The notes under the pieces: model-generated | Told to the model about the DNA's origin: nothing | The model's database searches: none | Seen by the model: only the letters and a program-made list of their open reading frames with translations | Position numbers and translations under genes: made by a program | DNA from: Candidatus Gastranaerophilales bacterium | GTDB lineage: Bacteria; Cyanobacteriota; Vampirovibrionia; Gastranaerophilales; Gastranaerophilaceae | Assembly (NCBI GenBank): GCA_944326515.1 | Contig: CALVEI010000014.1 | Coordinates: 1 to 40,170 of the forward strand | DNA length: 40,170 nucleotides | Direction: 5' to 3' | In this document: positions 1,419 to 37,211 of the stretch, in pieces | How positions within the stretch are numbered: the stretch's first letter is position 1 | Layout: each line of letters opens with the position of its first letter

Positions 1419-3371
1419 ATGACATTAATAACATTATCGATTTGGGTTTACACAATCGGTGGGGTTTTGCAACTGTTTTTTAAAGAAAAACATAAATGCA
1501 ATTTTCTCATCTTTATGAATTTTATTGCGGCAGCACTGACGTTCAAGCCTATAGTGTCAATACTGTATGAACGCAATATTTTAGAGACAACTGTTTATAT
1601 GGGACAGTTGCTAAAGGACGTGGCATTCCGTGTAGATGCTTTGAGTGCGTTCTTTATAATGATAATCTGCGGAGTCGGATTATTAGGTACAATATATTCT
1701 AAAAAGTACCTTGAACCATACATTGAACAAGGTAAAAAACTTGGTTCACACCTGTTTTTATTTAATGTTTTCCTTGCGTCAATGTTATTGGTAGTTATGT
1801 CACAAAACATTATTTTCTTCCTCATAAGTTGGGAATTAATGAGTTTTTCATCATTCCTTCTTATGATTTTTGAACACGAAGAAAAAGAAGTAAGACAATC
1901 AGGTATAAACTACTTAATAACAATGCACGTTGGGGTAATGTTCCTTGTTGTAGGGTTTATCCTTATGTATTTAAAAACAGGAAGCTTTGATTTTTCAGCA
2001 TTTGAAGGAAAAATCAGTGAACTTGTTTTTGCAATTATGTTTATTGGCTTTGGTATCAAGGCAGGCTTTGTTCCATTACACAGCTGGTTACCAAAAGCTC
2101 ACCCAGTTGCACCGACTCATATATCTGCATTGATGTCAGGTGTGATGATTAAAACAGGTATTTATGGCATTTTGAGAATGCTTTTATATATGGGCAAACC
2201 TACAATCACTGTTTCTTACTGTGTATTGTTGGTAGGTTTGGCATCAGCATTTTTTGGAATTCTTTACGCAGTAGCGCAAAGAAATTACAAAAAAATGCTT
2301 GCTTATTCCTCTATAGAAAATATAGGTATAATCACAACGGGTATGGCTGTTGCTATGCTTGGATTGGCATATAACAACTTCATTATGACAATGTTTGGAT
2401 TCTTAGGGTGCTTCTTGCACATCTTAAACCACTCTATATTCAAAACAATGATGTTCTTTAATGCCGGAGCTGTTTATACTCAAACCCATACAAAAGATAT
2501 GGAAAAATTAGGCGGACTTGTAAAGCCAATGAAAAATACGGCAATACTTTTCTTGCTTGGTTCACTAGCTATAAGTGCATTGCCTCCATTCAACGGATTT
2601 ATAAGCGAGTTTTTAATCTATATCGGATTTTTAACAAGCTTTTCAACACAAAATTATTTCTTATACACAATAATTATTGCAGCATTTGGAATAATCGCAT
2701 TTGTTGGAGCAATGGCATTGATTGCATTTACAAACGCATTCAGCATTATTTTCTTGGGTTCTCCAAGAACAGAAAAAGCACAACATGTAAAAGAAGATGT
2801 CTCAATATTTATGCAGCTTCCTATTATTGTTCTTGCTTTTTGTTCTTTAGTAATAGGCTTGTTCCCACAAAGGTACATTGATCTTGTTGTTGCACCTGTT
2901 CAACAATTTATACCGTTTAGCGTTCCTTATGAATTGTTGACAGTTATCTCAATATTCAACATAACTCTTTGCGTTGTGATTCTTATCATAATAGGATTAA
3001 GAGCTTTGTTATTGAGAGGCAGAACAGTTGAACACAGAGAAACTTGGGGCTGTGGCTATCAATACCCGACAGCAAAAATTCAATACAGTGCAAATTCATT
3101 CACCAGACCTTTCTTAGGATTTTTAACACCATTCTATAAAAGAGAGTTGAATTTTACACAAATTAAGGAATTATTCCCACAAAAAACATCATTTAAATCA
3201 AGAATTATAGATATCTTTGAATACTACATTATCAAGCCGATTGTAATCGTTGATGAATTTATTATTTCTAAATTCTACTGGATTCAAAGCGGTCACACTC
3301 AAAGATATTTGATATACGGCGTAGTATTCTTAATCGTTGCTATTGCCCTTCTTATCGGAGGTAAAATCTAA
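1419..3371 (+). CDS. hyfB: HyfB/NuoL-type antiporter-like membrane subunit of an Ehr-like complex
   Basis: This 650-residue protein is hydrophobic throughout, with about 14-16 membrane segments, and belongs to the Mrp-antiporter/complex I proton-channel family. The core motif GFGIKAGFVPLHSWLPKAH begins near residue 210 and contains Lys214, with a second buried Lys (Lys245) in MIKTGIYG. In this family such Lys residues line the ion path. Near residue 542 the sequence TWGCGYQYPTAKIQY matches the HyfB/HycC C-terminal signature and separates it from NuoL. It is the first gene of a six-gene operon and its stop shares one base with the next start. Expected role: one of two ion-translocating arms of the complex. 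The start ATG has no visible ribosome-binding site. Confidence 0.88.
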   Translation: MTLITLSIWVYTIGGVLQLFFKEKHKCNFLIFMNFIAAALTFKPIVSILYERNILETTVYMGQLLKDVAFRVDALSAFFIMIICGVGLLGTIYSKKYLEPYIEQGKKLGSHLFLFNVFLASMLLVVMSQNIIFFLISWELMSFSSFLLMIFEHEEKEVRQSGINYLITMHVGVMFLVVGFILMYLKTGSFDFSAFEGKISELVFAIMFIGFGIKAGFVPLHSWLPKAHPVAPTHISALMSGVMIKTGIYGILRMLLYMGKPTITVSYCVLLVGLASAFFGILYAVAQRNYKKMLAYSSIENIGIITTGMAVAMLGLAYNNFIMTMFGFLGCFLHILNHSIFKTMMFFNAGAVYTQTHTKDMEKLGGLVKPMKNTAILFLLGSLAISALPPFNGFISEFLIYIGFLTSFSTQNYFLYTIIIAAFGIIAFVGAMALIAFTNAFSIIFLGSPRTEKAQHVKEDVSIFMQLPIIVLAFCSLVIGLFPQRYIDLVVAPVQQFIPFSVPYELLTVISIFNITLCVVILIIIGLRALLLRGRTVEHRETWGCGYQYPTAKIQYSANSFTRPFLGFLTPFYKRELNFTQIKELFPQKTSFKSRIIDIFEYYIIKPIVIVDEFIISKFYWIQSGHTQRYLIYGVVFLIVAIALLIGGKI

Positions 3372-4246
3372 TGACATTTTTAACGGTTTTACTTTTACCT
3401 TTTCTGTTTATAGGATTAATAAACAAAATGAAAGCTGTATATGTTGGCAAACAAGGTGCACCTATATTACAGCCATATTACGACTTTTTTAAACTTATAA
3501 AAAAAGGTGAAGTATTAAGCGACACAAGTTCTTTTGTTTTTAAAATCGCACCATCTATAAATCTTGCTTGTACAATAGTTGCAGCAATAATACTTACGTT
3601 ATTGAATTTTAATGGAGATTTTATACTTTTTTCTTATGTATTAGCATTAGGAAAATTCTTCTCTGTTATTGCAGCAATGGATACAGGTTCAAGCTTTGAA
3701 GGAATGGGTGCCTCAAGAGAGGTAAGCTACACATCACTTGTTGAGCCGGCTTTCTTTATAATAATAGGTTCAGTAGCTGCTCTTAGCGGAATCCATTCTT
3801 TCAGAAATTTGTATGCATTAATCCAAATTCATAACGAAATAGTTATTTTAATATCACTTTTAGCGATATTTGCATTGTTTATGATGATATTAATCGAAGG
3901 TTCCAGAGTTCCTATTGATGATCCAAAAACTCACTTAGAATTGACAATGATACATGAAGTAATGGTTTTGGACAACTCTGGTGTTGATTTGGCATTTATA
4001 CATTATGCAAGTGCAATGAAAATGCTTTTATTCTCAACATTAATTGCTAATATAATTTGTCCTCAATTTTGGTGGGCATATTGGTTAGTACTTTTAGTTA
4101 TTGCATTTTTAATCGCAACTATCGAATCTATCGGAGCAAGAATAAGACTTACTCACATTATTGAATACACATTTGTAATGATTTCTGTTGCATTAATTGT
4201 GATGTCACTCGTTCTTTTAGTAATGCACGGAGGACACATAGCATGA
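3371..4246 (+). CDS. hyfC: HyfC/HycD/NuoH-type membrane anchor subunit
   Basis: This 291-residue membrane protein of the NuoH/HyfC family connects the peripheral arm of complex I-like enzymes to the antiporter-like subunits. The family motif GSRVPIDDPKTHLELTMIHE starts near residue 177 and carries the acidic residues of the cytoplasmic loop that contacts the electron-transfer module. The N-terminus (KMKAVYVGKQGAPILQPYYD) matches the conserved loop of HycD. A strong GGAGG at 3357-3361 precedes the ATG, and the start overlaps the previous stop by one base. The next gene overlaps as ATGA, so translation is probably coupled. Length is near the family norm. Confidence 0.9.
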   Translation: MTFLTVLLLPFLFIGLINKMKAVYVGKQGAPILQPYYDFFKLIKKGEVLSDTSSFVFKIAPSINLACTIVAAIILTLLNFNGDFILFSYVLALGKFFSVIAAMDTGSSFEGMGASREVSYTSLVEPAFFIIIGSVAALSGIHSFRNLYALIQIHNEIVILISLLAIFALFMMILIEGSRVPIDDPKTHLELTMIHEVMVLDNSGVDLAFIHYASAMKMLLFSTLIANIICPQFWWAYWLVLLVIAFLIATIESIGARIRLTHIIEYTFVMISVALIVMSLVLLVMHGGHIA

Positions 4247-4899
4247 TAAATTTATTAATTGTATTGTTTGGTGTTTCTATGCTTTATATGGCAAGTTCAA
4301 GCCGTATAATGGCACAAATAAATATGCTAAGACTACAAGGTCTTATCCTTTGTTTGATCACAATAATAGCTCACCATCACGCAAACATTGCCGGTATAGT
4401 GTTCTTGTTAATAGAAACATTTGTTGTCAAAGCAGTTATGATTCCTTGGTTTTTGGAAAAGGTTTCTAAAAAGAATAACATAAAAAGAGATAACAACCCG
4501 CAGTTTCCAAACTTTTATACACTCGTTGTATCAAGCTTTGTTTTATTTGCCGGTTTCTTAATAGCAAATATTCATAGTGATTACATGAAGAATATTTCTA
4601 ACTTATATTTTGGTATTTCTATTTCTACAATTATTACAAGCTTTTTATTTGTTGCAGTTAAGAAAAGACTTCTTACTCACGTAATAGGCTTTGCAATGTT
4701 AGAAAACGGTATATTTTTACTTTCATTATCAGTAGCAAAAGAAATGCCTTGGATTGTAAACATTGGTGTATTACTCGATGTATTTGTTGCCGTATTTATT
4801 CTCGGATTGTTAATTGGAGAAATAGGAAGCATTTACGAAAACCCCGGTGTTTGTCACCTTTGTAATTTAAAAGACAGTGAGAGTGAAGAAGATGAGTAA
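4243..4899 (+). CDS. hyfE: HyfE-type membrane subunit
   Basis: This 218-residue hydrophobic protein has about seven membrane segments. Its C-terminal half resembles NuoK: LENGIFLLSLSV near residue 157 keeps a membrane Glu of the kind used in proton transfer. The position between HyfC- and HyfF-type genes is as in hyf operons. GGAGG lies just before the ATG, which overlaps the previous stop in ATGA form. The C-terminus is a soluble acidic tail with a CHLC pair, close to the end of the protein. Assignment rests on topology and operon order more than on strong motifs. Confidence 0.8.
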   Translation: MINLLIVLFGVSMLYMASSSRIMAQINMLRLQGLILCLITIIAHHHANIAGIVFLLIETFVVKAVMIPWFLEKVSKKNNIKRDNNPQFPNFYTLVVSSFVLFAGFLIANIHSDYMKNISNLYFGISISTIITSFLFVAVKKRLLTHVIGFAMLENGIFLLSLSVAKEMPWIVNIGVLLDVFVAVFILGLLIGEIGSIYENPGVCHLCNLKDSESEEDE

Positions 4900-6118
4900 A
4901 TTTTTTGCGCTGGATAGTTTAAATTTGTTATTTATAATAGTTCTCGTCATCGTCACGGGTGCTGTAATGGTTTATCAAGGTAAACAAAATTGGAAATACT
5001 ACACAATTTTCGCTTTGTTTTTCCTTTCTATGACAGGTGCAATATTGAGTAGTCACCTTGGTTTAACTTGGGTATTTGTTGAAGCAACTACTTTAACAAG
5101 TGCATATTTAATTATGCAACACAAAACCCAAAACTCGCTTGAAGCTACTTGGAAATACGTCTTTTTATGTTCAATAGGTATTTCTTTAGCTTTCGTGGGT
5201 ATAATTTTATTGTTGATAGGTTGTGACGGAGTTAACTCACTTGCATACAGTGACCTTTACTCACACGCAACAGCAATAAACCCTTTTTGGTTAAAATTGT
5301 CATTTATATTTATTTTAATAGGTTTTGGAACAAAAGTTGGCTTGGCTCCTGTTCACAGTTGGTTGCCTGATGCTCACGCAGAAGCACCTTCGCCTGTATC
5401 AGCAATGCTTTCAGCCACTCTTTTGAACTCTGCTTTTCTTGTAATTTTAAGATATTACAAACTTATGGAATTGGCAGGAGTACAAGACACAGCAAAAGTT
5501 TTGCTTTTGACAATGGGCTTTTTATCAATATTCGTAACAGCAGTTTATGTTTATAAAATTGCAAACTACAAAAGAATGCTTGCATATTCATCAATTGAAA
5601 ATATGGGTATCATTGCAATAGGTACAGCTCTTGGCGGAGTTGCTGTTTTCGCGGCTGCATTGCACCTTGTTGCTCACTCTTTAATAAAAGCATCGTTCTT
5701 CCTTACTTCCGGTAACGTTTTAAAACTGTACAAAACTAAAGAAGTTGCAGAAGTCAAAGGTATAATAGAACAAGATAAAATAACCGGTTGGTTGTGGGTT
5801 ATTTGCGCGATGCTTATTGTAGCAGTGCCACCATCACCAATATTTATATCCGAATTCATAATGATTAAACAAATGATTGTAGAACATCACTACATCTTAT
5901 GTTTTATATTTATGCTTTTATTGACAGTGGTAATGTTCGGAATAATGAGAGCAGTAGTAAAAACAGCATTTGGTAAATCAAATTTAGAAGAAAAAACAAA
6001 ACTAAACTTTAACAAATACTTACCACAAATAGTATTATTAGCTGCAGCAATAGGACTTTGTGTATATTGTCCAAAGGCTGTTTATGATTTGATTGCAGGA
6101 GCAGCACAATGGATGTAA
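4892..6118 (+). CDS. hyfF: HyfF/NuoN-type antiporter-like membrane subunit
   Basis: This 408-residue protein is the second antiporter-like subunit. The core GFGTKVGLAPVHSWLPDAH is clear, but the membrane Lys found downstream in HyfB (MIKTG) is Asn here (LLNSA). YKRMLAYSSIENMG is the family's second conserved block. It is shorter than E. coli HyfF (about 526 residues), so some terminal helices are missing. I chose ATG 4892 over an in-frame GTG at 4877 because GAAGAAG lies just before it and it gives the usual short overlap (8 bases) with the upstream stop. It should form the second ion-translocation module. Confidence 0.85.
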   Translation: MSKFFALDSLNLLFIIVLVIVTGAVMVYQGKQNWKYYTIFALFFLSMTGAILSSHLGLTWVFVEATTLTSAYLIMQHKTQNSLEATWKYVFLCSIGISLAFVGIILLLIGCDGVNSLAYSDLYSHATAINPFWLKLSFIFILIGFGTKVGLAPVHSWLPDAHAEAPSPVSAMLSATLLNSAFLVILRYYKLMELAGVQDTAKVLLLTMGFLSIFVTAVYVYKIANYKRMLAYSSIENMGIIAIGTALGGVAVFAAALHLVAHSLIKASFFLTSGNVLKLYKTKEVAEVKGIIEQDKITGWLWVICAMLIVAVPPSPIFISEFIMIKQMIVEHHYILCFIFMLLLTVVMFGIMRAVVKTAFGKSNLEEKTKLNFNKYLPQIVLLAAAIGLCVYCPKAVYDLIAGAAQWM

Positions 6119-7557
6119 ATATGAACGTATTGGAATTTAAAAATAATCAAAAAATTAAAAGAGCTGATATTCCTGTTATGGATTTTGAAAGCTTCTCAAA
6201 GAAGATTCTCCCCTATGAAGTTAGAGTTATTAACCTTTTTGTAAAAAAAGAAAATGACAAAAACAGACTATACTGTATCTTTGCAGATGATAAAAACAAA
6301 AAATTGTTTTTAACAACAACATACATAGGCGAATCATATCCGTCATTAACTTTAAGCAAACCTTGCCTTCATATGTTCGAAAGACTTATTTATGAAGAAA
6401 CAGGTATTATACCGGAAGGTCATCCGTTTTTAAAACCAGTTAGAAAACAAGACGGAAACTCATATAAATTTTTAGAATCTCACGATATACAAACTCACGA
6501 AGTTGCTGTAGGTCCTGTTCACGCGGGGATTATTGAACCAGGTCACTTTAGATTTTTGTGTAACGGAGAAAGAGTAAACCACCTTGAAATACAACTTGGT
6601 TTCCAACACAGAGGAGTAGAAGACTTGCTTAGAAAAAGACCTTCTATTCAGTTGGCTGAGTCTATATGCGGTGATGAAACGATAGCCCAATCACTTGCAT
6701 ACGCAAGAGCAATGGAATCTCTTTCTAACATTGAAATAACACAAAGAGAAAAATTAATAAGACTTATTGCCCTTGAAATGGAAAGAATGGCTATTCACGT
6801 TGGAGATATTGGTGCAGTAGCAGGTGACGTTGCTTATTCAATAGGTGCAAATGTTCTTGGCGTAACAAGAACCCTTGTAATTAACACAATGCTTGAATTA
6901 AGCGGAAGCAGATTTGGTAAAGGCTTAATGAAATTTGGTGGCGTAAATTTTGACATCGACCTTACAATGAGAACAAAAATCTTAAATATGCTTGAAGAAG
7001 TCTGCGATAGAACAGACAAAATGGTTAAAGCAATGTTTGCTCACGCAACTGTTATCTCTCGTCTTGAAAACACAGGCTTTGTCGGCAAGAAAAAAGCAAG
7101 AGAAATCGGTCTTGTTGGTATGGCGGCCAGAGCTGCAGGCGAAGAATTCGATGCAAGAGTATTTGACGATTACGAAGATTTTGAAATCACAACGATGAAA
7201 ACCGGTGATGTTTATGCAAGAACATACCTCAGATATCTTGAAATCAAGAAATCAGCCCAAATAATAAAAAATATGTTAAACAAACTCGAAGATACGGAAA
7301 CTGAAATCAATAACAAAAGGTTTAATCTTAACTTAGAACCTGATTGTTGCGTATTTTCAATTGTAGAAGGTTGGAGAGGTGAAGTTGCACACTGTGTAAT
7401 GACTGACAAAAACTCTTACATAGAAACATATAAGATTAAAGGCGCTTCTTTTAACAACTGGTTTGGACTTGCTCTTGCAGTTAGAAATAACCAAATATCA
7501 GATTTTCCTGTCTGCAATAAAAGTTTTAATCTCTCATATTGCGGATTTGATTTATAA
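6109..7557 (+). CDS. hyfG: HyfG/NuoCD-like large subunit lacking the NiFe ligand pairs
   Basis: This 482-residue protein fuses a NuoC-like N-terminal domain (about residues 20-120) to a NuoD/hydrogenase large-subunit domain. HEVAVGPVHAGIIEPGHFRF near residue 130 and LGFQHRGVEDLL near 163 are family landmarks. Active group-4 hydrogenases bind Ni with CxxC near the N-terminus and DPCxxC at the C-terminus. Here the first motif reads ESICGDET (Cys187, with Glu190 in place of the second Cys), and the C-terminus reads KSFNLSYCGFDL with no CxxC. No NiFe site is therefore expected. The protein ends right after this motif, with no tail for a maturation protease, and no hyp genes are nearby. AGGAG precedes the ATG, which overlaps the previous gene by 10 bases. 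It resembles energy-converting hydrogenase-related (Ehr) complexes; the substrate is unknown. Confidence 0.87.
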   Translation: MDVNMNVLEFKNNQKIKRADIPVMDFESFSKKILPYEVRVINLFVKKENDKNRLYCIFADDKNKKLFLTTTYIGESYPSLTLSKPCLHMFERLIYEETGIIPEGHPFLKPVRKQDGNSYKFLESHDIQTHEVAVGPVHAGIIEPGHFRFLCNGERVNHLEIQLGFQHRGVEDLLRKRPSIQLAESICGDETIAQSLAYARAMESLSNIEITQREKLIRLIALEMERMAIHVGDIGAVAGDVAYSIGANVLGVTRTLVINTMLELSGSRFGKGLMKFGGVNFDIDLTMRTKILNMLEEVCDRTDKMVKAMFAHATVISRLENTGFVGKKKAREIGLVGMAARAAGEEFDARVFDDYEDFEITTMKTGDVYARTYLRYLEIKKSAQIIKNMLNKLEDTETEINNKRFNLNLEPDCCVFSIVEGWRGEVAHCVMTDKNSYIETYKIKGASFNNWFGLALAVRNNQISDFPVCNKSFNLSYCGFDL

Positions 7558-7578
7558 TAAATTAAAAAGAGAAAAATT

Positions 7579-8322
7579 ATGCTTGAAACATTAAAAACAC
7601 TCGGATTACAAAAAAATCAATTAATAAAAGACATCAGAACAGCAACACCTAAAGATGGTTTTAGGGGATTGCCGTCTATAGACATTAATGCTGATGAAAA
7701 TTGGCAAGAATGTATGTCTGTTTGCCCTACAGGTGCTTTAAAAGTAGCTGATGGTGAAGCATCAATTGACTTAGGAAAATGCACTCTTTGCGGAGAATGC
7801 GCAAGATACTGTAAAAATGATGGTATCAAGTTTTCAAAATTCCACAAACTCGGTGCAGTTAACAGAGAAGATTTAATTGTTAACGGAGAACTTAATCCGA
7901 TAAAATGCAAAGAAGAAATAAAAAAATTCTTTGGCAAATCATTAAAGTTAAGACAAGTTTCTGCAGGCGGATGCAACTCTTGTGAAATGGAGTTAAATGC
8001 TTGTTCAAACGCTAACTTTGATATGGGAAGATATGGAGTTGATTTTGTAGCTTCCCCAAGACACGCTGACGGTGTGGTTATCACTGGACCTGTAACCAAA
8101 AATATGGCTAAAGCCCTTGAAGATACTTACTTCGCCTGCGCAGAACCGAGAATCGTTATAGTTGTCGGCGCATGTGCAATTTCAGGCGGTGTTTTCCAAG
8201 ATTCTGAAGAGATTGACAGAAGCTTTTTTGAAAGACACAAACCCGATTTATACATACCGGGTTGCCCTGCTCATCCATTGACAATAATTAACGCAATCTT
8301 AGATTTCATCGGCGCAAAATAA
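7579..8322 (+). CDS. hyfI: HyfI/NuoB-like small subunit fused to a ferredoxin domain
   Basis: This 247-residue protein joins a HyfH/NuoI-like ferredoxin domain (about residues 35-85) to a hydrogenase small subunit/NuoB domain. The ferredoxin part has one complete motif (Cys68, 71, 74, 78) and a partial one (Cys45, Cys49-Pro). The first two cysteines of motif 1 are absent, so one of the usual two [4Fe-4S] clusters is probably missing. The NuoB-like part keeps four ligands for the proximal cluster: GCNSC (Cys132, Cys135), VGAC (Cys199) and PGCP (Cys229). It would pass electrons from ferredoxin towards the large subunit. It follows the large subunit by 21 bases, with AGAG as a weak ribosome-binding site, and ends the operon. 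Confidence 0.88.
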   Translation: MLETLKTLGLQKNQLIKDIRTATPKDGFRGLPSIDINADENWQECMSVCPTGALKVADGEASIDLGKCTLCGECARYCKNDGIKFSKFHKLGAVNREDLIVNGELNPIKCKEEIKKFFGKSLKLRQVSAGGCNSCEMELNACSNANFDMGRYGVDFVASPRHADGVVITGPVTKNMAKALEDTYFACAEPRIVIVVGACAISGGVFQDSEEIDRSFFERHKPDLYIPGCPAHPLTIINAILDFIGAK

Positions 8323-8347: not shown

Positions 8348-8388
8348 TGGATTACTACGCCAAGTTAATGTAATTTATTATTGTGGTT

Positions 8389-9732
8389 ATGAAAAAGATA
8401 TTAACTATACTGGCTTTTATGTTTTTAATAGAACTTCCTGCGCACTCAGCACAAGAGGTTATTAAACTTGATTTAAAAGATAATCATCAATTTGCAGAAA
8501 ATATAATTGCCAAAAATATGGAAATAGAAAACCCTGTACTTGAAACAGAATCAGAAAGTACAAAAAATCCGTCTGTTTTTCAAGAAACCATTCAAAAAAA
8601 CGAACAGGATAAGGCAGAAACTCAAGTTCAAACTCAAGATAGAAGCGGTATAGCAGATTACGATCCTACGATGGGAGGAACATCTCCAAAGTTTTTTCTG
8701 TTTAATGCAATAACCAAAGCAGCCAATGATGTTTATAAATTGGAGATTGAAAGAACTGATGTTCCTTCACAGCTTTTAAAAGATCAATTAACTTTTAAAG
8801 TAAACAAAGGGCCATTAGACAGTATTCACATTTGGTCTGCATATCAAATGAACTTTTCAACTAATGTACCTGAAAGAGGCGATACCGATTCAAAATTTGA
8901 TGTAGGGTTGATTAATATACTTATTGACGGAAATTTCAAGGGTGGCAAAGAAAATTTCAGAATAATGCTTGACCCAACACACAGAAGCAGCCACCCTGAC
9001 TTTATGCAACCGTTCTTTCAAGATTTGTATATTGAATCACACAGAATACCTCACCATACAATTTTAGTTGGTAACTCTCGCCCTGGCGTTGGTATAGAAG
9101 GAGCACAATCACCTTATACACTTGCATTTATTAACCGTTCACAGATTTCAAGAAACCTTGCGAATATTCGTAAATTCGGTGTAAGACTAAGAGGTGACTA
9201 TTCATTAATGGATTACGACTTAGGTATCTATAGTTCTTCTACCAATTTCACATCATTCTTCCCTGGGCACGAATTTGACGCTTGGATGAACGTAAAACCA
9301 CTTGGTAAAACAGATGGAAAATATGGAAAACTTGTAACTGGTGCAGGTATCCAATCAGGTGAAAAACACGGTACAAGCTATTATTTAACAGGCGTTTACG
9401 CAGGTTATGACTACAAAAAATTCTGGTCAAAATTTGAATACGCAAGAGCAAACGGCTCAAACGGCGGTTCAGGCCTTACTGATAACCGTTCACAAGGTTT
9501 ATTTGTTACTTTAGGTTATCACCTGACAAAAAAACTTGAAATCCTTGCCAGATACGACCAATTTGACCCGGACAGAAGCATAAGAAACAATAACCAAAAA
9601 GAATTCACGTTAGGAACAAACTACTACTTAAAAGGACAAGCTTTAAAACTTATATTTAACTACGTCTACTGCCAAAACGATAATAAAGTGGATTCCCACA
9701 GATTAATGATGGGTACACAAATAGTATTGTAA
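8389..9732 (+). CDS. Secreted porin-like outer-membrane beta-barrel protein
   Basis: This 447-residue protein has a signal peptide (MKKILTILAFMFLIELPAHSA, cleavage expected after HSA), a polar Glu/Gln-rich linker to about residue 85, then a barrel-like region. The last strands (LEILARYDQFDPD, then FTLGTNYYLKGQALKLIFNY and RLMMGTQIVL) look like the end of phosphate-selective porin O/P-type barrels. No substrate can be inferred. I take ATG 8389 because the signal peptide begins there; an in-frame GTG lies two codons upstream. No good ribosome-binding site is seen. Its stop codon directly abuts that of the next, convergent gene. Confidence 0.65.
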   Translation: MKKILTILAFMFLIELPAHSAQEVIKLDLKDNHQFAENIIAKNMEIENPVLETESESTKNPSVFQETIQKNEQDKAETQVQTQDRSGIADYDPTMGGTSPKFFLFNAITKAANDVYKLEIERTDVPSQLLKDQLTFKVNKGPLDSIHIWSAYQMNFSTNVPERGDTDSKFDVGLINILIDGNFKGGKENFRIMLDPTHRSSHPDFMQPFFQDLYIESHRIPHHTILVGNSRPGVGIEGAQSPYTLAFINRSQISRNLANIRKFGVRLRGDYSLMDYDLGIYSSSTNFTSFFPGHEFDAWMNVKPLGKTDGKYGKLVTGAGIQSGEKHGTSYYLTGVYAGYDYKKFWSKFEYARANGSNGGSGLTDNRSQGLFVTLGYHLTKKLEILARYDQFDPDRSIRNNNQKEFTLGTNYYLKGQALKLIFNYVYCQNDNKVDSHRLMMGTQIVL

Positions 9733-10311
9733 TTACCAGTTAGGATAATAATAAAGTTCTATTGTATCTCGTTCTTTGAGTGACGCATGCCCGCCTTTTA
9801 TAAAATTCGTGAATGTTCCTGTTGGTGGGAGAAACGTTAAAGCCCATTTTAAAGGAAATACCCACAAACTTCTATCTTGACCAAATATTTCAATAGTATC
9901 AGTAACTTTAGAAGAATCAATATTATCAAACTTAAAATCACCAATTATTATACTCGCAGGAATACCATTCATACCGCTTCTTATAATAGTTTCAACTCTT
10001 GCATACACAAGGTCATCTTTTCTTAAGACTTTTCTACCGTGAGCATATACATCATGACAAGCTCTAAAAACTATCGTTTCTCCTTCATGTACATATTTTT
10101 CAGATTTTATGTCAGCAATAACTTTTAATTCTATAGATATACGTTTTAAATCCTGATAGTTATACTTGTAATAAGAATAAGGATTTTTTAGATTTTTATC
10201 TTTTAAAGTGCTATCAGCAAAATCATCTTGCAAAAGTGTAGCTGCATTACACATCGATGCACTTAAAATAAAGGGTATTATTAATGTTAAAAGGCGTTTT
10301 TTCTTATTCAT
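9733..10311 (-). CDS. Secreted protein of unknown function
   Basis: This 192-residue protein starts with a signal peptide (KKKRLLTLIIPFILSASMCNA). The mature part is polar, with alternating strands such as ETIVFRACHDVYAHGRKVLR and LVYARVETIIRSGMNGIPAS. That pattern suggests a small beta domain that would work in the periplasm or at a membrane surface. I do not recognise the family. It is the last of three minus-strand genes and overlaps the end of the M48-like gene by 8 bases, so the two are probably translated together. No terminator is visible after its stop. Confidence 0.6.
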   Translation of the reverse strand: MNKKKRLLTLIIPFILSASMCNAATLLQDDFADSTLKDKNLKNPYSYYKYNYQDLKRISIELKVIADIKSEKYVHEGETIVFRACHDVYAHGRKVLRKDDLVYARVETIIRSGMNGIPASIIIGDFKFDNIDSSKVTDTIEIFGQDRSLWVFPLKWALTFLPPTGTFTNFIKGGHASLKERDTIELYYYPNW

Positions 10312-11029
10312 ACTTCAATTCTTTTTTAGATTTTGTCTTAATTTTTTCTTGCAACATTCTTCTGTTTTCCAAAGATGTAAGCAAGAAATTTTGATAGTGT
10401 TCATTAGTTAAATATGTATTGTTAGCTAAAAAGTACGGATATTTAGTATAAATATACTCATATATTATAGCCAAACGTTTTGATGCCAAGTTTTTTGTTG
10501 AAATAGTATCAAACCTTTTTTGGGGACAACTTTTTTGAATAAAAGTTATTAACCCCAAAGGGTTATAACCTGCATTTACCATAAAATCTACAGCTCTTTT
10601 ATCTGCTACAATTTCAAACTTTTTCGGTGCAGCTTTAATCTGTAATGCAGACAAATATCCTTTAAAAAAGCCATTATATGATTTCATAGAAGTCAAAATA
10701 CCTCTTGCAAGGTAAGCAGCAAGCTCGTCATCATTTTGTATGAATTTATAATACTCATCATACAAAACAACTTCTCTACTTGTTACAGTAGGGTCTATTG
10801 TTAAGAGATTCTCTTTTTTATTTTTGTCATATACAAAAACTATTCTATTCTCTATTTTATTTGAGTTTAAAAGTTTAGAACCTATATTATTAACTCTTGA
10901 TTGAATACTTTGTTCTTTTTCTATAGCTTGCTCATCTGTTTGAACATTTACTTTACTATTTGTTTCTTCAGCGCAAACCATAAGTGGAATTAAAAATAAA
11001 CTTAAGACAGCTAGTGTTTTCTTTATCAT
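10304..11029 (-). CDS. Catalytically dead M48-like secreted protein
   Basis: This 241-residue protein has a signal peptide (MIKKTLAVLSLFLIPLMVCA). It is recognisable as M48-like by comparison with the protein at 36369-37211. NDDELAAYLARGILT aligns with NDNELAAVVASEIGH, and VADKRAVDFMVNAGYNPLGL aligns with EADITAVDLLATAKYNPLAL. All three zinc-binding positions are lost: HExxH is replaced by RGILT (residues 109-113) and the third-ligand Glu by Val. It is therefore unlikely to be a peptidase and may bind a partner. ATG 11029 (preceded by TGAGGT) is chosen over a TTG seven codons upstream, which lacks a ribosome-binding site. The gene sits just downstream of a GspF-like gene. Confidence 0.65.
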   Translation of the reverse strand: MIKKTLAVLSLFLIPLMVCAEETNSKVNVQTDEQAIEKEQSIQSRVNNIGSKLLNSNKIENRIVFVYDKNKKENLLTIDPTVTSREVVLYDEYYKFIQNDDELAAYLARGILTSMKSYNGFFKGYLSALQIKAAPKKFEIVADKRAVDFMVNAGYNPLGLITFIQKSCPQKRFDTISTKNLASKRLAIIYEYIYTKYPYFLANNTYLTNEHYQNFLLTSLENRRMLQEKIKTKSKKELKYE

Positions 11030-11046
11030 AATTACCTCAGAATAAA

Positions 11047-12063
11047 TCAAAACATATTAAACATACTACCATATAATCTTTTATAAAACGTTATAGCAAT
11101 ATATGCAACTATCAAACCTACAATTACAATTGTCGCAGGCTGCAACCACGCCATAATAATATTTAGCGTGTCTTTTAACTTGTTTTCATAGTCTTGTGCA
11201 ATATCTTTAAAAGCATTACCTAAACGGCCTGTTTTTTCGCCTACTGAAATCTGAGAAACAGCATAAGGACTATATATCTCAGAAGAAACAAATGCAGAAG
11301 AAACATCACTACCGTTTTTCAACATACTTATTGTTTTCATTGAACCAAGTATGCAACGTTTATTTTTAAACAAAGAAGCGGCTTGATCTACCGCATCAAC
11401 AATAGGAATACCAGCCTCATAACAAGAAGCCAACATATAGAAAAAATTAGTAAAATAAACCCCATTAACAATCGGAGCCAAAAACGTTTTTTCTGTCAAA
11501 TAATCAATTAATTTTTCATATCTTTTTTTGTCAGAAACAAAATAATATACCGCAAAAAATATTAATCCATATGCCAATACAACTTTAAATATTGCAGTTA
11601 TAAACAAAGCAAATTTTGTAGCAGGACACATACCGGTTGTGTACATAACGTCAAAAACTTTAAAGAAAAAAGAATGACAAAATATCAATACACCTATAGA
11701 ACCTAAAAACAACAAAGTAGGATAAGTCAAAGAAGCAATCAAACGGCTTTTAAGCATTTCAGTTCTTTGTATATCCTCTTTTATGCGAGCTATTGAGTCT
11801 TCTAAACGTCCGCTTTTATCACCAGCACAAAACAACATTGCATATTGAGGGCTAACAATGTCTTTGTGCTGTATCATCAATTCAGAAACAGGCATACCAC
11901 TATCTATGCCGTTTCTAAAAATTCTACACAAGTTTTTTATTTTTGTGTTTGTACTTGAAGTTTCTATTGTTTTAAAAACATCAGTATAAGAAAACCCCGC
12001 AGTATACAAACTCTCAATCGAACTAAAAAATTGTTTTTTTTCTGATAAAGTTAATGGTTTCAT
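11047..12063 (-). CDS. GspF/PilC-type inner-membrane platform protein
   Basis: This 338-residue protein has the two-domain layout of the T2SSF family. One cytoplasmic helical domain lies at about residues 5-115 (FFSSIESLYTAGFSYTDVF, CAGDKSGRLEDSIARI). A pair of membrane segments follows, then a second copy (FFYMLASCYEAGIPIVDAV, ISVGEKTGRLGNAFKDIA) and a C-terminal membrane helix. These proteins form the platform of type II secretion and type IV pilus machines. No GspE/PilB ATPase, pilin or secretin gene is next to it, so its machine must be encoded elsewhere or it has another role. ATG 12063 is preferred to a TTG six codons upstream, because that TTG overlaps a TATAAT box. Confidence 0.8.
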   Translation of the reverse strand: MKPLTLSEKKQFFSSIESLYTAGFSYTDVFKTIETSSTNTKIKNLCRIFRNGIDSGMPVSELMIQHKDIVSPQYAMLFCAGDKSGRLEDSIARIKEDIQRTEMLKSRLIASLTYPTLLFLGSIGVLIFCHSFFFKVFDVMYTTGMCPATKFALFITAIFKVVLAYGLIFFAVYYFVSDKKRYEKLIDYLTEKTFLAPIVNGVYFTNFFYMLASCYEAGIPIVDAVDQAASLFKNKRCILGSMKTISMLKNGSDVSSAFVSSEIYSPYAVSQISVGEKTGRLGNAFKDIAQDYENKLKDTLNIIMAWLQPATIVIVGLIVAYIAITFYKRLYGSMFNMF

Positions 12064-31697: not shown

Positions 31698-33227
31698 TTG
31701 AACAGATTTCTTCGTATAAAAATAATACCAACGGTTTTAGCGTTGTCATTCACGTTTTGTCAGCTATTTTCTTGTGCCTACGGTTTTTCAATACCATTTA
31801 AAAAAGATAAACAAACAAAAAGCAACGAAAAACCAGCTGTACAAATGAAAGCAGAGGTAAACAAAACAGTAGAATACTCTCTTGAAGATTGCATTAATAT
31901 TGCATTGGCAAACGACCCGAGTATAAAAATAGCAAATACACAAAAAGATATCGCAAATTCACAGGTAGGTCTTGCCAAAGCTGATTATTTTCCGAACTTA
32001 ACTGTAGGCAACGGCTTCACATCCCAACACAACAAAAACTCCGGTCACGGTGGTGGGTTTTACAACCAAGGCGGAAGTACATCATCTGACAACAACTATT
32101 ATCAATTAAACCTTGGAGTTAACCAACTTATATGGGACTTTGGCTCAACAATAGCTCGCATTAATATGCAAAAATATAACAAAGAATCAGTTGGTTATGA
32201 CTTAGAAAATACTATTTTAAACACTATATACAGAGTAAAACTGGCTTATTTTGAAGCATTAGCAGCACTCGCTAATCAAGATGTTTTTGAACGTTCGGTA
32301 AGAATTAACAAATTAAATTACAAAAGAACAAACGCTCTATTTCAAGAAGGATTAAAATCAAAAATCGACGTTGTTAACGCACAAGTTTATTTAACAGATG
32401 CGGAAATATCACTACTAAATGCTCAAGGACAGTATCAAAACGCAATTGTGAACTTAAACAATGCAATGTATTATCCTGACGCACCTGATTACACATTAAA
32501 AAATACAGAAAGTTTTAACTTCCAAAGAACAAAACCGCAAAAAACACAAGTTAACGTAAACACAATCAAAAAAAGCGGCAGCAAAGAGTACGAACAAACC
32601 GCAATCCTAACATCAGGTATCGAAAAACAAGACATTTTACAAGATTACAAATTTCAACCATTAATCATTCCTGTTGATGAAGCAATCCAAATAGCATATG
32701 AAAACAGACCTGATTTAAAATCACTGTTAATGGTGGAAAGAGCACAAAAAGAATCACTAAAAGCGATAAAACGTTCTTACTTCCCTGTATTAAGCGCAAG
32801 CTCAGGATACAACTACAGAAAAAACAGTGACGTATCTAACACAGGTTTTAATATCGGTGTATCCCTAAATTTCCCAACCCTAAACTTTATGGATATGAAA
32901 TACAGTATCGAACAAGGTAAATCATATCTGCAAATGGCAGGAGAAAACATTGACTTATCTAAAAAAAATATACATTTTGAAGTTAAAAACAACTACGTAA
33001 ATATGGTTGTTTTGCAGAAAAAAATCCCGCTTATGGCACAAAAAGTTCAACAGACTTTAGAAAACTTTGAACTCGCTGACGGCAGATACACTGTAGGCCT
33101 AGGCAATTTTATAGAACTTCAACAAGCACAAACAAACTATAACAATGCTCAACTATCTTTTGTACAAGCAGTCTTTGACTATAACGTTGCAAAAGAACAA
33201 TTTCAAAAATCCATGGGGGTAAGATGA
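31698..33227 (+). CDS. tolC: TolC-family outer-membrane efflux protein
   Basis: This 509-residue protein has a signal peptide, then two outer-membrane efflux protein repeats (about residues 55-255 and 325-505). Each opens with a conserved helix start (YSLEDCINIALANDPSIK; VDEAIQIAYENRPDLKSL). The central helices EGLKSKIDVVNAQVYLTDAE and GLGNFIELQQAQTNYNNAQL match the family's long coiled-coil barrel. It forms the exit duct for the MacAB-like pump encoded next. The start is TTG, with AAGGT eight bases before it. The two domains are linked by a polar region near residues 275-310. Confidence 0.88.
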   Translation: MNRFLRIKIIPTVLALSFTFCQLFSCAYGFSIPFKKDKQTKSNEKPAVQMKAEVNKTVEYSLEDCINIALANDPSIKIANTQKDIANSQVGLAKADYFPNLTVGNGFTSQHNKNSGHGGGFYNQGGSTSSDNNYYQLNLGVNQLIWDFGSTIARINMQKYNKESVGYDLENTILNTIYRVKLAYFEALAALANQDVFERSVRINKLNYKRTNALFQEGLKSKIDVVNAQVYLTDAEISLLNAQGQYQNAIVNLNNAMYYPDAPDYTLKNTESFNFQRTKPQKTQVNVNTIKKSGSKEYEQTAILTSGIEKQDILQDYKFQPLIIPVDEAIQIAYENRPDLKSLLMVERAQKESLKAIKRSYFPVLSASSGYNYRKNSDVSNTGFNIGVSLNFPTLNFMDMKYSIEQGKSYLQMAGENIDLSKKNIHFEVKNNYVNMVVLQKKIPLMAQKVQQTLENFELADGRYTVGLGNFIELQQAQTNYNNAQLSFVQAVFDYNVAKEQFQKSMGVR

Positions 33228-34390
33228 AAAAACGAATAATTATAATAACAAGCGTAATTGCTGCCATATTTTTTGTTAGCGGTTTTGCATTTTTCTTTGG
33301 AAAAAACCCAAACGCCGACTACATCACAGTCCCCGTAAAAAGAAAAACAATAATAGAAGCCGTAGAAGCATCAGGTACTGTTAACCCTGTAAACACTGTT
33401 GACATAGGTTCTCAAGTATCAGGTATGATTAAAGATATTTATGTTGACTACAACTCTAAAGTAAAAAAAGGACAACTCCTTGCACAAATTGACCCCTCTC
33501 TGTTTCAAGCACAAGTTGACAAAGCAAGAGGTGACTTAGAAGCAGCTCGTTCAAACAAAGCAAAAATTGAAGCAATGCTTGTTTATGACAAAAAAAATTA
33601 CGAAAGATACAAAAAATTATATACAAAAAACTATGTAGCCAAAAGTGATCTCGACCTTGCAGAAGCAACTTACAAATCCGATTTGGCACAAATTGCCGCA
33701 GCTCAAGGCACAATTAACCAAGCTCAAGCAACATTACAAAACAATTTAACAAACTTGAGATACACAAGAATCGTCTCTCCTGTAGATGGTATTGTTGTTT
33801 CAAGAGCGGTAGATGTTGGTCAAACTGTTGCAGCTAGTTTTCAAACACCAACATTATTCCAAGTTGCGCAAGATTTAACAAACATGCAAATAGAAGTAAA
33901 CGTATCAGAAGCTGATATTGGCAGAATCAAAAAAGGACAAGAAGTTGAATACACTCTTGACGGATACGCTGATGAAGTATTCCACGGGAAAGTTACAGAA
34001 GTCAGAATTGCACCAACAACAGTGTCCAATGTTGTAACATATACCGTCATCGTTGATGTTGATAACAAAGATCAAAAGATGATTCCAGGTATGACTGCTA
34101 ACGTTTCTATTATTACTAATAAAAGAGAAAACGTAATCTGCGTTCAAACAGACGCCCTAAAATTTACAGACAAAGAACTTACAGGCGGCAAAAAATATAA
34201 AGACCAAGGTTTATGGGTTATAAAAGACAATAAACCTCAAAGAATTACAATTAAAACAGGTGCCAAAGATTCTGACAGAACAGAAATCATATCAGAAAAC
34301 CTTAAAGAAAACGACAGAGTGATTCTTAAAAAAAGAAATGAACAAGATAAAAAAACACAAACAAGAAAACCTCGAATGAGAATGTTCTAA
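33224..34390 (+). CDS. macA: MacA-type periplasmic adaptor (HlyD family)
   Basis: This 388-residue membrane-fusion protein has an N-terminal membrane anchor (IIIITSVIAAIFFVSGFAFF) and a lipoyl half-motif with the MacA/HlyD signature SGTVNPVNTVDIGSQVSG. A coiled-coil hairpin (about residues 90-170), the second lipoyl half RIVSPVDGIVVSRAVDVG and beta-barrel segments follow. It bridges MacB in the inner membrane and TolC. The start overlaps the tolC stop (ATGA). The Lys/Arg-rich C-terminus (KKTQTRKPRMRMF) is unusual and of unknown effect. Confidence 0.9.
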   Translation: MKKRIIIITSVIAAIFFVSGFAFFFGKNPNADYITVPVKRKTIIEAVEASGTVNPVNTVDIGSQVSGMIKDIYVDYNSKVKKGQLLAQIDPSLFQAQVDKARGDLEAARSNKAKIEAMLVYDKKNYERYKKLYTKNYVAKSDLDLAEATYKSDLAQIAAAQGTINQAQATLQNNLTNLRYTRIVSPVDGIVVSRAVDVGQTVAASFQTPTLFQVAQDLTNMQIEVNVSEADIGRIKKGQEVEYTLDGYADEVFHGKVTEVRIAPTTVSNVVTYTVIVDVDNKDQKMIPGMTANVSIITNKRENVICVQTDALKFTDKELTGGKKYKDQGLWVIKDNKPQRITIKTGAKDSDRTEIISENLKENDRVILKKRNEQDKKTQTRKPRMRMF

Positions 34391-34394
34391 TAAC

Positions 34395-35102
34395 ATGAAA
34401 TTAATTGAAATAAAAAATTTAATAAAAACTTATTCAACAGGAGAAACATCATTTAACGCACTGAACGATGTTTCTCTAAGCATTGAGAAAGAAGAATTTG
34501 TTGCAATAATGGGAGCTTCCGGCTCAGGAAAATCCACCTGCATGAATATTTTAGGCTGTCTTGATAAACCAACTTCAGGCAGTTATTTTCTTGACGGAAT
34601 AGACGTCAGCCAAATGTCTATGGATGAACTTTCGACAATCAGAAACCGAAAGCTCGGATTTGTATTCCAAGGTTTTAACCTTATCCCAAGAACATCAGCA
34701 ATAGAAAATGTAGAAATGCCAATGATATACAAAGGCATACCACCAGAAGAAAGAATAAAAAGAGCAAAAGAAGCCCTAAAAATTGTAGGACTGGAAGCAA
34801 GAGAAACGCACCTGCCAAACCAAATGTCAGGCGGACAACAGCAAAGAGTTGCAATAGCACGTGCAATAGTAAATGATGCCCCAATTATCCTTGCAGATGA
34901 ACCTACAGGAAACCTCGATACAAAAACATCAATAGAAGTAATGGAATTTTTTGTCAAACTGAATGATTCAGGTAAAACAATCATTCTTGTAACGCATGAA
35001 CCTGATATCGCTCAATATTGCAAAAGAATAGTAAGATTTAAAGACGGAAACATAATAAGTGATGAAATAAACACTAATAGAACGGAGGTTCGAAACGTAT
35101 GA
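34395..35102 (+). CDS. macB: MacB-type ABC transporter ATPase
   Basis: This 235-residue ABC ATPase of the MacB/LolD group has Walker [10 protein letters not shown] (residues 40-48), the LolD/MacB-type loop [20 protein letters not shown], the signature MSGGQQQR and Walker B ILADEPTG, with the switch His in LVTHEPD. It couples ATP hydrolysis to long-range movements that drive export through TolC. In proteobacterial MacB this domain is fused to the permease; here it is a separate gene that overlaps the next by 4 bases. Confidence 0.93.
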
Positions 35103-36328
35103 TAGATTTTGAATCGACGCTAAAAATTTCACTTCGTTCCCTAAAAGTAAATAAAATGCGCTCTATACTAACCAGTTTAGGCATTATTATCGGTGTAAGC
35201 GCTGTTATTATAATGCTTTCCATAGGTGAAGGAGCAAAAGAAAGGATAAATAAAGATATTGCCTCAATGGGATCCAATGTATTGATGGTTTTATCAGGTT
35301 CTACAACCTCAAGCGGTGTAAGAATGGGGAGTGGAACTCAACCGACTTTAACCATTAAAGATTCAGAAGCTATGCTAAAACACTGCCCATCAGTTTTAGA
35401 AGTTGCTCCAACAGTCGGCCAAGTTCAACAACTTGTATATGCAAACCAAAACTGGTCAACAACAGTAAACGGTATCACCCCTGGTTATATGCCGATAAGA
35501 ATGTGGGAAGTTGAGTCAGGACGAGGCATAACAGAAGATGACCTTAAAAACACAACAAAAGTTGCTTTACTCGGTTCAACAGTAACAGAAAATCTGTTTG
35601 GTGATATGGATCCACTCAACAGAACAGTTCGTATCGGAGGTATGCCATTTAAAGTAATTGGCATACTAAAATCAAAAGGTCAAAACGGTATGGGACAAGA
35701 CCAAGACGATACTGTGTTAATTCCCATTACAACAGCACAAAAAAAATTATTCGGCTCTGATTTTCCGGGAATGGTTAAACACATAAACGTACAAGCTAAA
35801 GATGCAGAAAGCCTTGATTCTGCTCAGCAAGAAATAACAGAACTGTTAAGAGAACGACATAACCTTGGAAAAAACAAAGAAGATGACTTTAGCATAAGAA
35901 ACTTTACTCAAATGTTAGAAACAGCAAAACAAGCCTCTAACACAATGGCTATTTTACTTGGCTCTATAGCTTCGGTTTCACTTCTTGTCGGTGGTATAGG
36001 CATTATGAACATTATGCTTGTATCAGTAACAGAACGTACTAAAGAAATCGGTATCCGTATGGCAATAGGTGCAACAGCAATGGATATAAGAATCCAATTT
36101 TTATTTGAAGCATTGCTATTATCGCTAGCAGGTGGTTTTATAGGTGTCTTAATAGGTGTTTTAGGAAGCAAAATTGTCGGACTTTTCTCTGAAATGACTG
36201 TAATAATTTCCCCCATACCTATTTTAATTTCATTTGGATTTGCGGGGATTGTAGGCATAGTATTTGGTTATTATCCAGCTTATAAAGCGTCATTATTAAA
36301 CCCGATTGAAGCTTTAAGATATGAGTAA
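35099..36328 (+). CDS. macB: MacB-type permease (FtsX-like)
   Basis: This 409-residue permease has one N-terminal helix (SILTSLGIIIGVSAVIIMLS), a periplasmic MacB core domain of about 220 residues, then the three-helix FtsX domain. SLLVGGIGIMNIMLVSVTER is the conserved transmembrane/cytoplasmic coupling block and TKEIGIRMAIGA follows. The C-terminus (PAYKASLLNPIEALRYE) is the family end. With the preceding ATPase it makes a complete MacB. GGAGG precedes the ATG, which overlaps the ATPase stop. A terminator follows. Likely cargo: a drug, peptide, lipid or toxin. Confidence 0.93.
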   Translation: MIDFESTLKISLRSLKVNKMRSILTSLGIIIGVSAVIIMLSIGEGAKERINKDIASMGSNVLMVLSGSTTSSGVRMGSGTQPTLTIKDSEAMLKHCPSVLEVAPTVGQVQQLVYANQNWSTTVNGITPGYMPIRMWEVESGRGITEDDLKNTTKVALLGSTVTENLFGDMDPLNRTVRIGGMPFKVIGILKSKGQNGMGQDQDDTVLIPITTAQKKLFGSDFPGMVKHINVQAKDAESLDSAQQEITELLRERHNLGKNKEDDFSIRNFTQMLETAKQASNTMAILLGSIASVSLLVGGIGIMNIMLVSVTERTKEIGIRMAIGATAMDIRIQFLFEALLLSLAGGFIGVLIGVLGSKIVGLFSEMTVIISPIPILISFGFAGIVGIVFGYYPAYKASLLNPIEALRYE

Positions 36329-36368: not shown

Positions 36369-37211
36369 TTAATTGTTAGATTGCAACAAACTATATGCAG
36401 AACTCCAAGGATTAGTTGATTTAGCCATGTTTCTTGCTCTTTTTAATTTATCTTTTTGCAATTTCTCTTGTTCTTTTTGTGCTTTTTCAAGTTTTTTAGG
36501 GTCAGCTTTTCTGATTTTTAAATTAGCATAAATCAGATTTAAAGCACTTTGATAAGACTCAGTCTTGTAATTTGCTTTAACAATATCAGGATAATTATAA
36601 TTAGCGTAATCATAAATATTCATAATTCTGTCTTCGCAAGAAAGTTTTTCATCCATCAAACCACCAACATTGGCTAAATCTGACTTATAAACAACAGAAA
36701 TCAAAGCTAAAGGGTTATATTTTGCAGTTGCTAACAAATCAACAGCAGTGATATCTGCTTCTTTTTGATTATCTCTGCTTACTTTGCTGGAAGACATTGT
36801 CTTTAAAATATTAACCGTTGTAGCACCTTTACCGGTTCCGCTTGTTGGAGCGATAGAAGAAAGTACATTGTTAAACATAGTTGATTTTGCATAATGCCCG
36901 TTCACTAAATGACCTATTTCTGAAGCTACAACAGCAGCAAGCTCGTTGTCATTTTCTACATACTTTAAATCTTCTCTGTAAATATAAACAACCTTTGTAT
37001 AAGTATCTTCAGAATTCATATTCTGATTGTCAGTAACTTTAAAAGTAACCGTTGTAGGCATTTTATTTGCTTTAATAATATTTTGCCCAATAACATTCAA
37101 ATGGCTAACATTTTTTGTATCGAACCAATTTGTTGATGTATTATACGAAGCGGCAAATGCCCCTGAAGTCAACAAAAACATACTCAACACAATTCCAAAC
37201 AGTTTTTTCAT
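36369..37211 (-). CDS. M48-like secreted protein with HExxH changed to SEIGH
   Basis: This 280-residue protein has a signal peptide (MKKLFGIVLSMFLLTSGAFA). The M48 peptidase core is recognisable: NDNELAAVVASEIGHLVNGH (residues 87-106), where active enzymes have HEIGH. Here the first zinc-ligand His is Ser97, while Glu98, His101 and the third ligand Glu151 (KEADITAVD) remain. With one ligand missing it is probably inactive or binds metal poorly. YNPLALISVVYKS follows as in M48 proteins. The C-terminus is a Lys-rich helix. It pairs with the fully degraded paralog at 10304-11029. A TATAAT at 37246-37241 and GGGAG support this start. Confidence 0.78.
   Translation of the reverse strand: MKKLFGIVLSMFLLTSGAFAASYNTSTNWFDTKNVSHLNVIGQNIIKANKMPTTVTFKVTDNQNMNSEDTYTKVVYIYREDLKYVENDNELAAVVASEIGHLVNGHYAKSTMFNNVLSSIAPTSGTGKGATTVNILKTMSSSKVSRDNQKEADITAVDLLATAKYNPLALISVVYKSDLANVGGLMDEKLSCEDRIMNIYDYANYNYPDIVKANYKTESYQSALNLIYANLKIRKADPKKLEKAQKEQEKLQKDKLKRARNMAKSTNPWSSAYSLLQSNN

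Follow-up and report, generated by a model that had tools for sequence, protein, structure and literature searches.

The DNA analysed here (the window), 40,170 nucleotides from a Candidatus Gastranaerophilales genome, makes up contig C14 of an assembly that spans 2.2 Mb and is 97.8% complete; the bacterium lives in the gut and is a relative of the cyanobacteria. All absences from this genome reported below are subject to the missing ~2%. At positions 1419-8322 the window encodes a complete energy-converting hydrogenase-related (Ehr) complex, a new member of a kind already published from such bacteria. Ehr complexes are described as having an architecture like that of complex I and Hyf, loss of the nickel-iron (NiFe) ligands, and an unknown function (PMC6349859, PMC7894505, PMC10284858, PMC10432482). 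A preliminary description, made from the letters of the window, had called the locus an Ehr-type complex without a NiFe site, and the alignments, two absences from the genome (PF00374 and HypD), and the published descriptions all agree with it. For the clade to which the window belongs we tentatively favor a ferredoxin-linked ion pump, a complex-I-type translocator without a NiFe site, over several other readings that are weighed below.

The loss of the NiFe site was traced in the large subunit. A profile built from its relatives matched HycE of the E. coli formate hydrogenlyase (1e-62), MbhL (1e-57), and NuoD (9e-41), and the best fold match of its AlphaFold model (pTM 0.84; residues 110-145 and 462-482, and with them parts of the pocket, were modelled with low confidence) was 7z0s_E, which is HycE (TM 0.80). 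In the alignments, the first CxxC reads C187-G-D-E190, while the stretch aligned with the DPCxxC of HycE reads N474-L-S476-Y-C478-G479, so that S476 and G479 take the places of the two ligands; L482 is the last residue of the protein. The preliminary description had reported CGDE at 187-190, SFNLSYCGFDL in place of DPCxxC, and the lack of a C-terminal maturation tail, all of which were confirmed; it had also reported that hyp genes are absent, which stands for HypD, the only Hyp member searched in the genome (HypA, B, C, E, and F were not searched one by one). Moreover, PF00374, the [NiFe]-hydrogenase large subunit family, had no match in the window's genome. A cryptic NiFe hydrogenase was rejected on the basis of the lost ligand motifs and the missing PF00374 match and HypD. 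By sequence, the features of a group 4 [NiFe]-hydrogenase, namely two CxxC motifs and a cleavable tail, are missing alongside HypD, and H+ at a NiFe site can be discarded as the acceptor.

The same ligand loss occurs in a copy with 97% identity that comes from a different assembly, as well as in all other related loci, and is thus not a sequencing error that hides the cysteines, a concern raised in the preliminary description. A pseudogene was likewise rejected, since independent relatives share the loss and dN/dS was 0.00-0.10 for each of the six genes, indicating purifying selection. The named relatives were mostly Candidatus Gastranaerophilales genomes from metagenomes, the nearest being 97% identical. 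Two records titled Fusobacterium sp. and Muribaculaceae bacterium (L050, L057) have Ehr loci that resemble those of Gastranaerophilales, and their titles may be wrong. Among the relatives, C, S, T, A, V, or N can stand at position 187 and C, S, or A at position 478, so the remaining cysteines do not form a conserved site, and C187 with C478 as a remnant metal site was rejected. G188 and D189 were nearly invariant and NKSFxLSYxGxDL formed a C-terminal signature; the pocket is strongly conserved although the NiFe ligands are gone. In phylogenetic reconstruction, NiFe-less relatives formed a supported clade apart from HycE/HyfG, in a tree that was built without published reference Ehr such as Geobacter EhrL.

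Family searches bore out the HyfBCEFGI-like subunit families that had been named beforehand. All six subunit types are present as six same-strand open reading frames (ORFs), and the claim that they form one overlapping operon holds for the first five, whereas the last, the small-subunit gene, is separated by a 21-bp gap. Gene order was kept in nearly all related loci of sufficient length, and the HyfE-like gene kept its operon position in nearly all related loci. HyfF of the window's clade is shorter than that of other Ehr types by ~65 N-terminal residues (~two membrane helices), a short form supported by an in-frame stop at 4868 and by alignment with longer relatives. HyfB retains the Glu of transmembrane helix 5 (TM5), the Lys of TM7, and the acidic residue of TM12, and the NuoH-like subunit retains the residue aligned with NuoH E157. 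These key Glu/Lys positions of NuoL and NuoM, and NuoH E157, were kept in nearly all members compared, including those without the proximal iron-sulfur cluster. By sequence, the membrane arm is complete, with conserved ion-path residues.

The small subunit, which matched MbhJ (6e-26) and HycG (1e-21), is fused to a ferredoxin domain with a full ligand set for one [4Fe-4S] cluster only (C49, C68, C71, C74), the other set being incomplete; this fusion and the short HyfF had gone unnoticed in the preliminary description. From knowledge of NuoI, we take the complete set to be N6b-like, adjoining N2, and the incomplete one to be N6a-like. All eight cysteines of this cluster and of the proximal (N2-like) cluster were invariant in 39/39 entries from Gastranaerophilales and one class-level relative (35 distinct loci, four entries being the same contig fetched twice), while the other cysteines of the ferredoxin domain vary across the same clade. 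This invariance suggests that electron transfer still matters here.

Elsewhere among the NiFe-less relatives the proximal ligands have been replaced and the ferredoxin-domain set kept: the proximal set reads D-C-D/E-N in 5/5 Bacteroidota loci, T-D-E-S in Allomeiothermus, and N-D-D-A in M. branderi. An acidic residue occupied the third proximal ligand position in every one of the cluster-less small subunits noted (L069-L073, L075, L091). The Bacteroidota were nested among cluster-bearing relatives and the other two formed separate branches, so that the proximal cluster was likely lost at least three times, with long branches making the deep tree placements unsure. Despite this loss, the Bacteroidota loci keep the large-subunit motifs of the window; genes downstream of these loci were rejected as partners, being housekeeping or unrelated genes by eye. 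Rhizobium-type complexes present the reverse case, in that the proximal cluster is kept and the ferredoxin domain is missing, with no separate one in the operon. We infer that in a member without the proximal cluster electrons would be unable to reach the pocket by the usual route. Because three lineages lost this cluster, the nearest of them with the same pocket motif, pocket redox chemistry would not be universal among the NiFe-less relatives.

Both [4Fe-4S] sites are strictly conserved in the window's clade, and ferredoxin-driven pumping could thus still operate there. Under the pump that we favor, reduced ferredoxin made by pyruvate:ferredoxin oxidoreductase (PFOR) would give electrons to the ferredoxin-domain cluster, from which they would pass to the proximal cluster and then to a small acceptor in the large-subunit pocket, and this transfer would drive ion export. 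The preliminary description had likewise proposed electron flow from ferredoxin to an acceptor coupled to ion pumping, which is possible but unproven: PFOR is present in the genome and the two cluster sites and the ion-path residues are in place, but three other lineages have lost the proximal cluster, which counts against such a mechanism for Ehr in general. That loss, in at least one case (Bacteroidota) accompanied by the same pocket motif, argues against redox chemistry in the pocket as the core function and is one of several points that weigh against the pump. No recognizable catalytic ligand set remains in the pocket and no acceptor is known; ferredoxin as donor is itself something we infer; and the quinone-binding residues H38 and Y87 align with I142 and G188 (the H38 alignment being uncertain by one position).

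A close rival, which we rate only somewhat lower, is a non-redox or redox-gated ion translocator, in which the arm would move H+ or Na+ for pH or weak-acid homeostasis while the clusters stabilize or gate it. The repeated proximal-cluster losses, the Rhizobium-type complexes, and the retention of ion-path residues in cluster-less members are all consistent with such a translocator, but the eight invariant cysteines of the window's clade argue against it. It also draws on a set of distant NiFe-less complexes from plasmids of B. cenocepacia, B. multivorans, Alicyclobacillus, and M. branderi, in which the operon or gene set is immediately preceded by a fluoride riboswitch. A review ranks formate hydrogen lyase among the commonest genes under fluoride riboswitches, with sodium/proton antiporters also listed, and both fluoride and formate are weak acids (PMC11139923). 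The large subunits of the fluoride-linked loci examined here lack NiFe ligands, so these complexes are unlikely to be hydrogenases. However, although their large subunit is related to that of Ehr, they form a separate deep branch of the tree, have another C-terminal motif, and are under fluoride control, and scans of the window and of Gastranaerophilales loci turned up no fluoride riboswitch; control of the window's operon by one was accordingly rejected. The fluoride-linked loci (L092, L111, L109, L091) lay near crcB, DUF190, pyrophosphatase, or enolase genes, and the stretch from the Alicyclobacillus plasmid (L109) yielded no small subunit.

The translocator, like the pump, is further in line with the co-occurrence of Ehr and a formate/nitrite transporter (FNT) channel. 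This gene adjoins Ehr in four genomes of the genus, mostly in divergent orientation, and its best match was FocA (263 bits, cut-off 290), with a score above the cut-off of the general FNT family. Within the genus, the channel was present in 6/6 genomes with Ehr and 0/17 without it (Fisher p 1e-5), and within the family in 7/8 and 0/28, respectively; the neighborhood in four of the six had prompted the test, and genomes that are related do not count as independent cases. No Ehr-FNT association was detected in other families. The window's genome carries the channel on a different contig (C102), and this genome, G006, and G030 are the cases found without adjacency. FNT accompanies two Ehr types that share only 52-53% identity, whereas identity between the two groups of channels is 71-74%; judging from these values, the pairing appears to have persisted through an exchange, or an old split, of Ehr. 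FocA-type channel loci were noted at L032, L038, L040, L043, and L104. Under the favored pump as well, the co-occurrence suggests that Ehr acts in the cell's dealings with formate or some other small weak acid. A broader version, in which Ehr is in essence a complex-I-derived translocator for weak-acid stress (formate, fluoride) rather than a pocket oxidoreductase, with clusters that gate it where kept and have repeatedly been lost, seems to us unlikely.

Formate could also enter as an electron source through a formate dehydrogenase (FDH) that supplies Ehr, an arrangement put forward for Margulisbacteria and Saganbacteria as well as for some of the Melainabacteria (PMC6349859). In Geobacter, Ehr reaches higher abundance on formate (PMC7894505), and besides the FocA-type channel that accompanies Ehr there is a pyruvate formate-lyase (PFL) gene ~1.5 kb downstream of the operon in G028, the one Ehr-containing family member without FNT. 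Against this, molybdopterin oxidoreductase (PF00384) was found neither in the window's genome nor in 57/58 relatives searched (11/14 control genomes were detected), leaving no FDH partner, and PFL was not found in the window's genome. PFL as a general partner was rejected as well, given its presence in only 2/17 genomes with Ehr and the lack of an association. Barring a gene that the assembly misses or an FDH of another kind, the published FDH-Ehr idea is excluded for the window's genome, and we regard it as extremely improbable.

The genome encodes three [FeFe]-hydrogenase-family genes; Rnf/Nqr and a second NuoD-like gene (complex I) were not found, and apart from Ehr no complex of the type of complex I, Rnf/Nqr, or Ech was found in it. 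A quinone reductase like 11-subunit complex I, highly improbable in our assessment, would share the same fold, and a futalosine-pathway marker was present in 6/9 Ehr-containing genomes outside the window's family. However, neither the window's genome nor the searched members of its family had MenD over the cut-off or MqnA/D, and Ehr showed no association with menaquinone markers or complex I. In addition, neither H38 nor Y87 of NuoD is retained at the aligned positions, and the N2-like cluster has CxxC rather than the tandem cysteines of respiratory complex I. With no marker in the genome, menaquinone is unlikely as acceptor, as is a quinone generally, barring genes in the missing assembly part or quinone scavenged from other gut bacteria.

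Comparison with the ferredoxin-side modules that sit on antiporter-type membrane arms in Pyrococcus furiosus, MBH and MBS, brings in a sulfane sulfur reductase like MBS, which we rate as highly unlikely. Like the window's complex, MBS has lost the NiFe ligands; MBS also lacks equivalents of E21, H38, and Y87, but works at a three-cysteine proximal cluster in a shortened loop (PMC7684303), whereas the window has all four proximal cysteines with hydrogenase-like CxxC spacing. MBH, in contrast, keeps the NiFe site. With E. coli formate hydrogenlyase and hydrogenases 3 and 4 (Hyc, Hyf), the window has in common the membrane arm of HyfB, C, E, and F type, HycE being closest in both solved fold and sequence; it differs in lacking the NiFe ligands, the tail, HypD, FDH, HyfA, HyfD, and a separate HyfH. 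The group-4/complex-I-like subunit set in one operon, the loss of the NiFe cysteine pairs, and the conserved antiporter ion-path residues are shared with published Ehr. As compared with the fetched loci only, the window is set apart by the lack of FDH in the genome, the fused one-cluster ferredoxin domain, the short HyfF, and the co-occurring FNT.

Features of the Ehr locus and its downstream neighbor (positions in the window)
Feature	Position	Strand	Basis
HyfB/NuoL-like antiporter subunit, 650 aa	1419..3371	+	NF005086 HyfB 536 bits (below cut-off 667), PF00361
HyfC/NuoH-like membrane anchor, 291 aa	3371..4246	+	PF00146 93 bits
HyfE-like membrane subunit, 218 aa	4243..4899	+	NF008556 57 bits (below cut-off)
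HyfF/NuoM-like antiporter subunit, short form, 413 aa	4877..6118	+	NF005044 HyfF 326 bits, from profile position 110
Large subunit, NuoC-NuoD/HycE-like, 482 aa, without NiFe ligands	6109..7557	+	Profile matches, fold match
C187-G-D-E190 at place of N-terminal CxxC	6667..6678	+	Alignments
C-terminal SFNLSYCGFDL at place of DPCxxC; maturation tail absent	7522..7554	+	Alignments
Small subunit, NuoB/HycG-like, fused to ferredoxin domain, 247 aa	7579..8322	+	PF01058 93 bits, Fer4
Ligands of single ferredoxin-domain [4Fe-4S] cluster: C49, C68, C71, C74	7723..7800	+	Conservation
Ligands of proximal (N2-like) [4Fe-4S] cluster: C132, C135, C199, C229	7972..8265	+	Conservation
Outer-membrane porin (Porin_O_P), frequent operon neighbor, not a subunit	8383..9732	+	PF07396

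Genes of this porin cluster were found in 13/44 loci examined (some duplicates among them), and a Porin_O_P porin adjoins Ehr in two different Ehr types. No terminator-like site was found on the + strand between the operon end at 8322 and the porin at 8383, and the porin possibly shares a transcript with Ehr. On a Variovorax plasmid (L074), the Ehr operon is followed ~3.4 kb further by a second Hyf-like operon. Elsewhere in the window, inspection by eye pointed to two peptidase-like paralogues on the minus strand (10304-11050 and 36369-37211), and to an outer-membrane efflux protein, a membrane fusion protein, an ABC ATPase, and a MacB-like permease in a row (31698-36328), as in a MacAB-TolC-type exporter.

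Ehr complexes occur widely, and in published surveys of genomes their function is given as unknown. With FDH and H2 excluded and quinone made unlikely in one small fermenter, the question of what Ehr does has been narrowed. The repeated loss of the proximal cluster, in at least one case with the pocket motif retained, together with the FNT and fluoride links, yields a concrete, testable alternative, in which a relative of complex I would translocate ions without redox chemistry in the pocket. The finding is most useful as a lead to the role of Ehr complexes.

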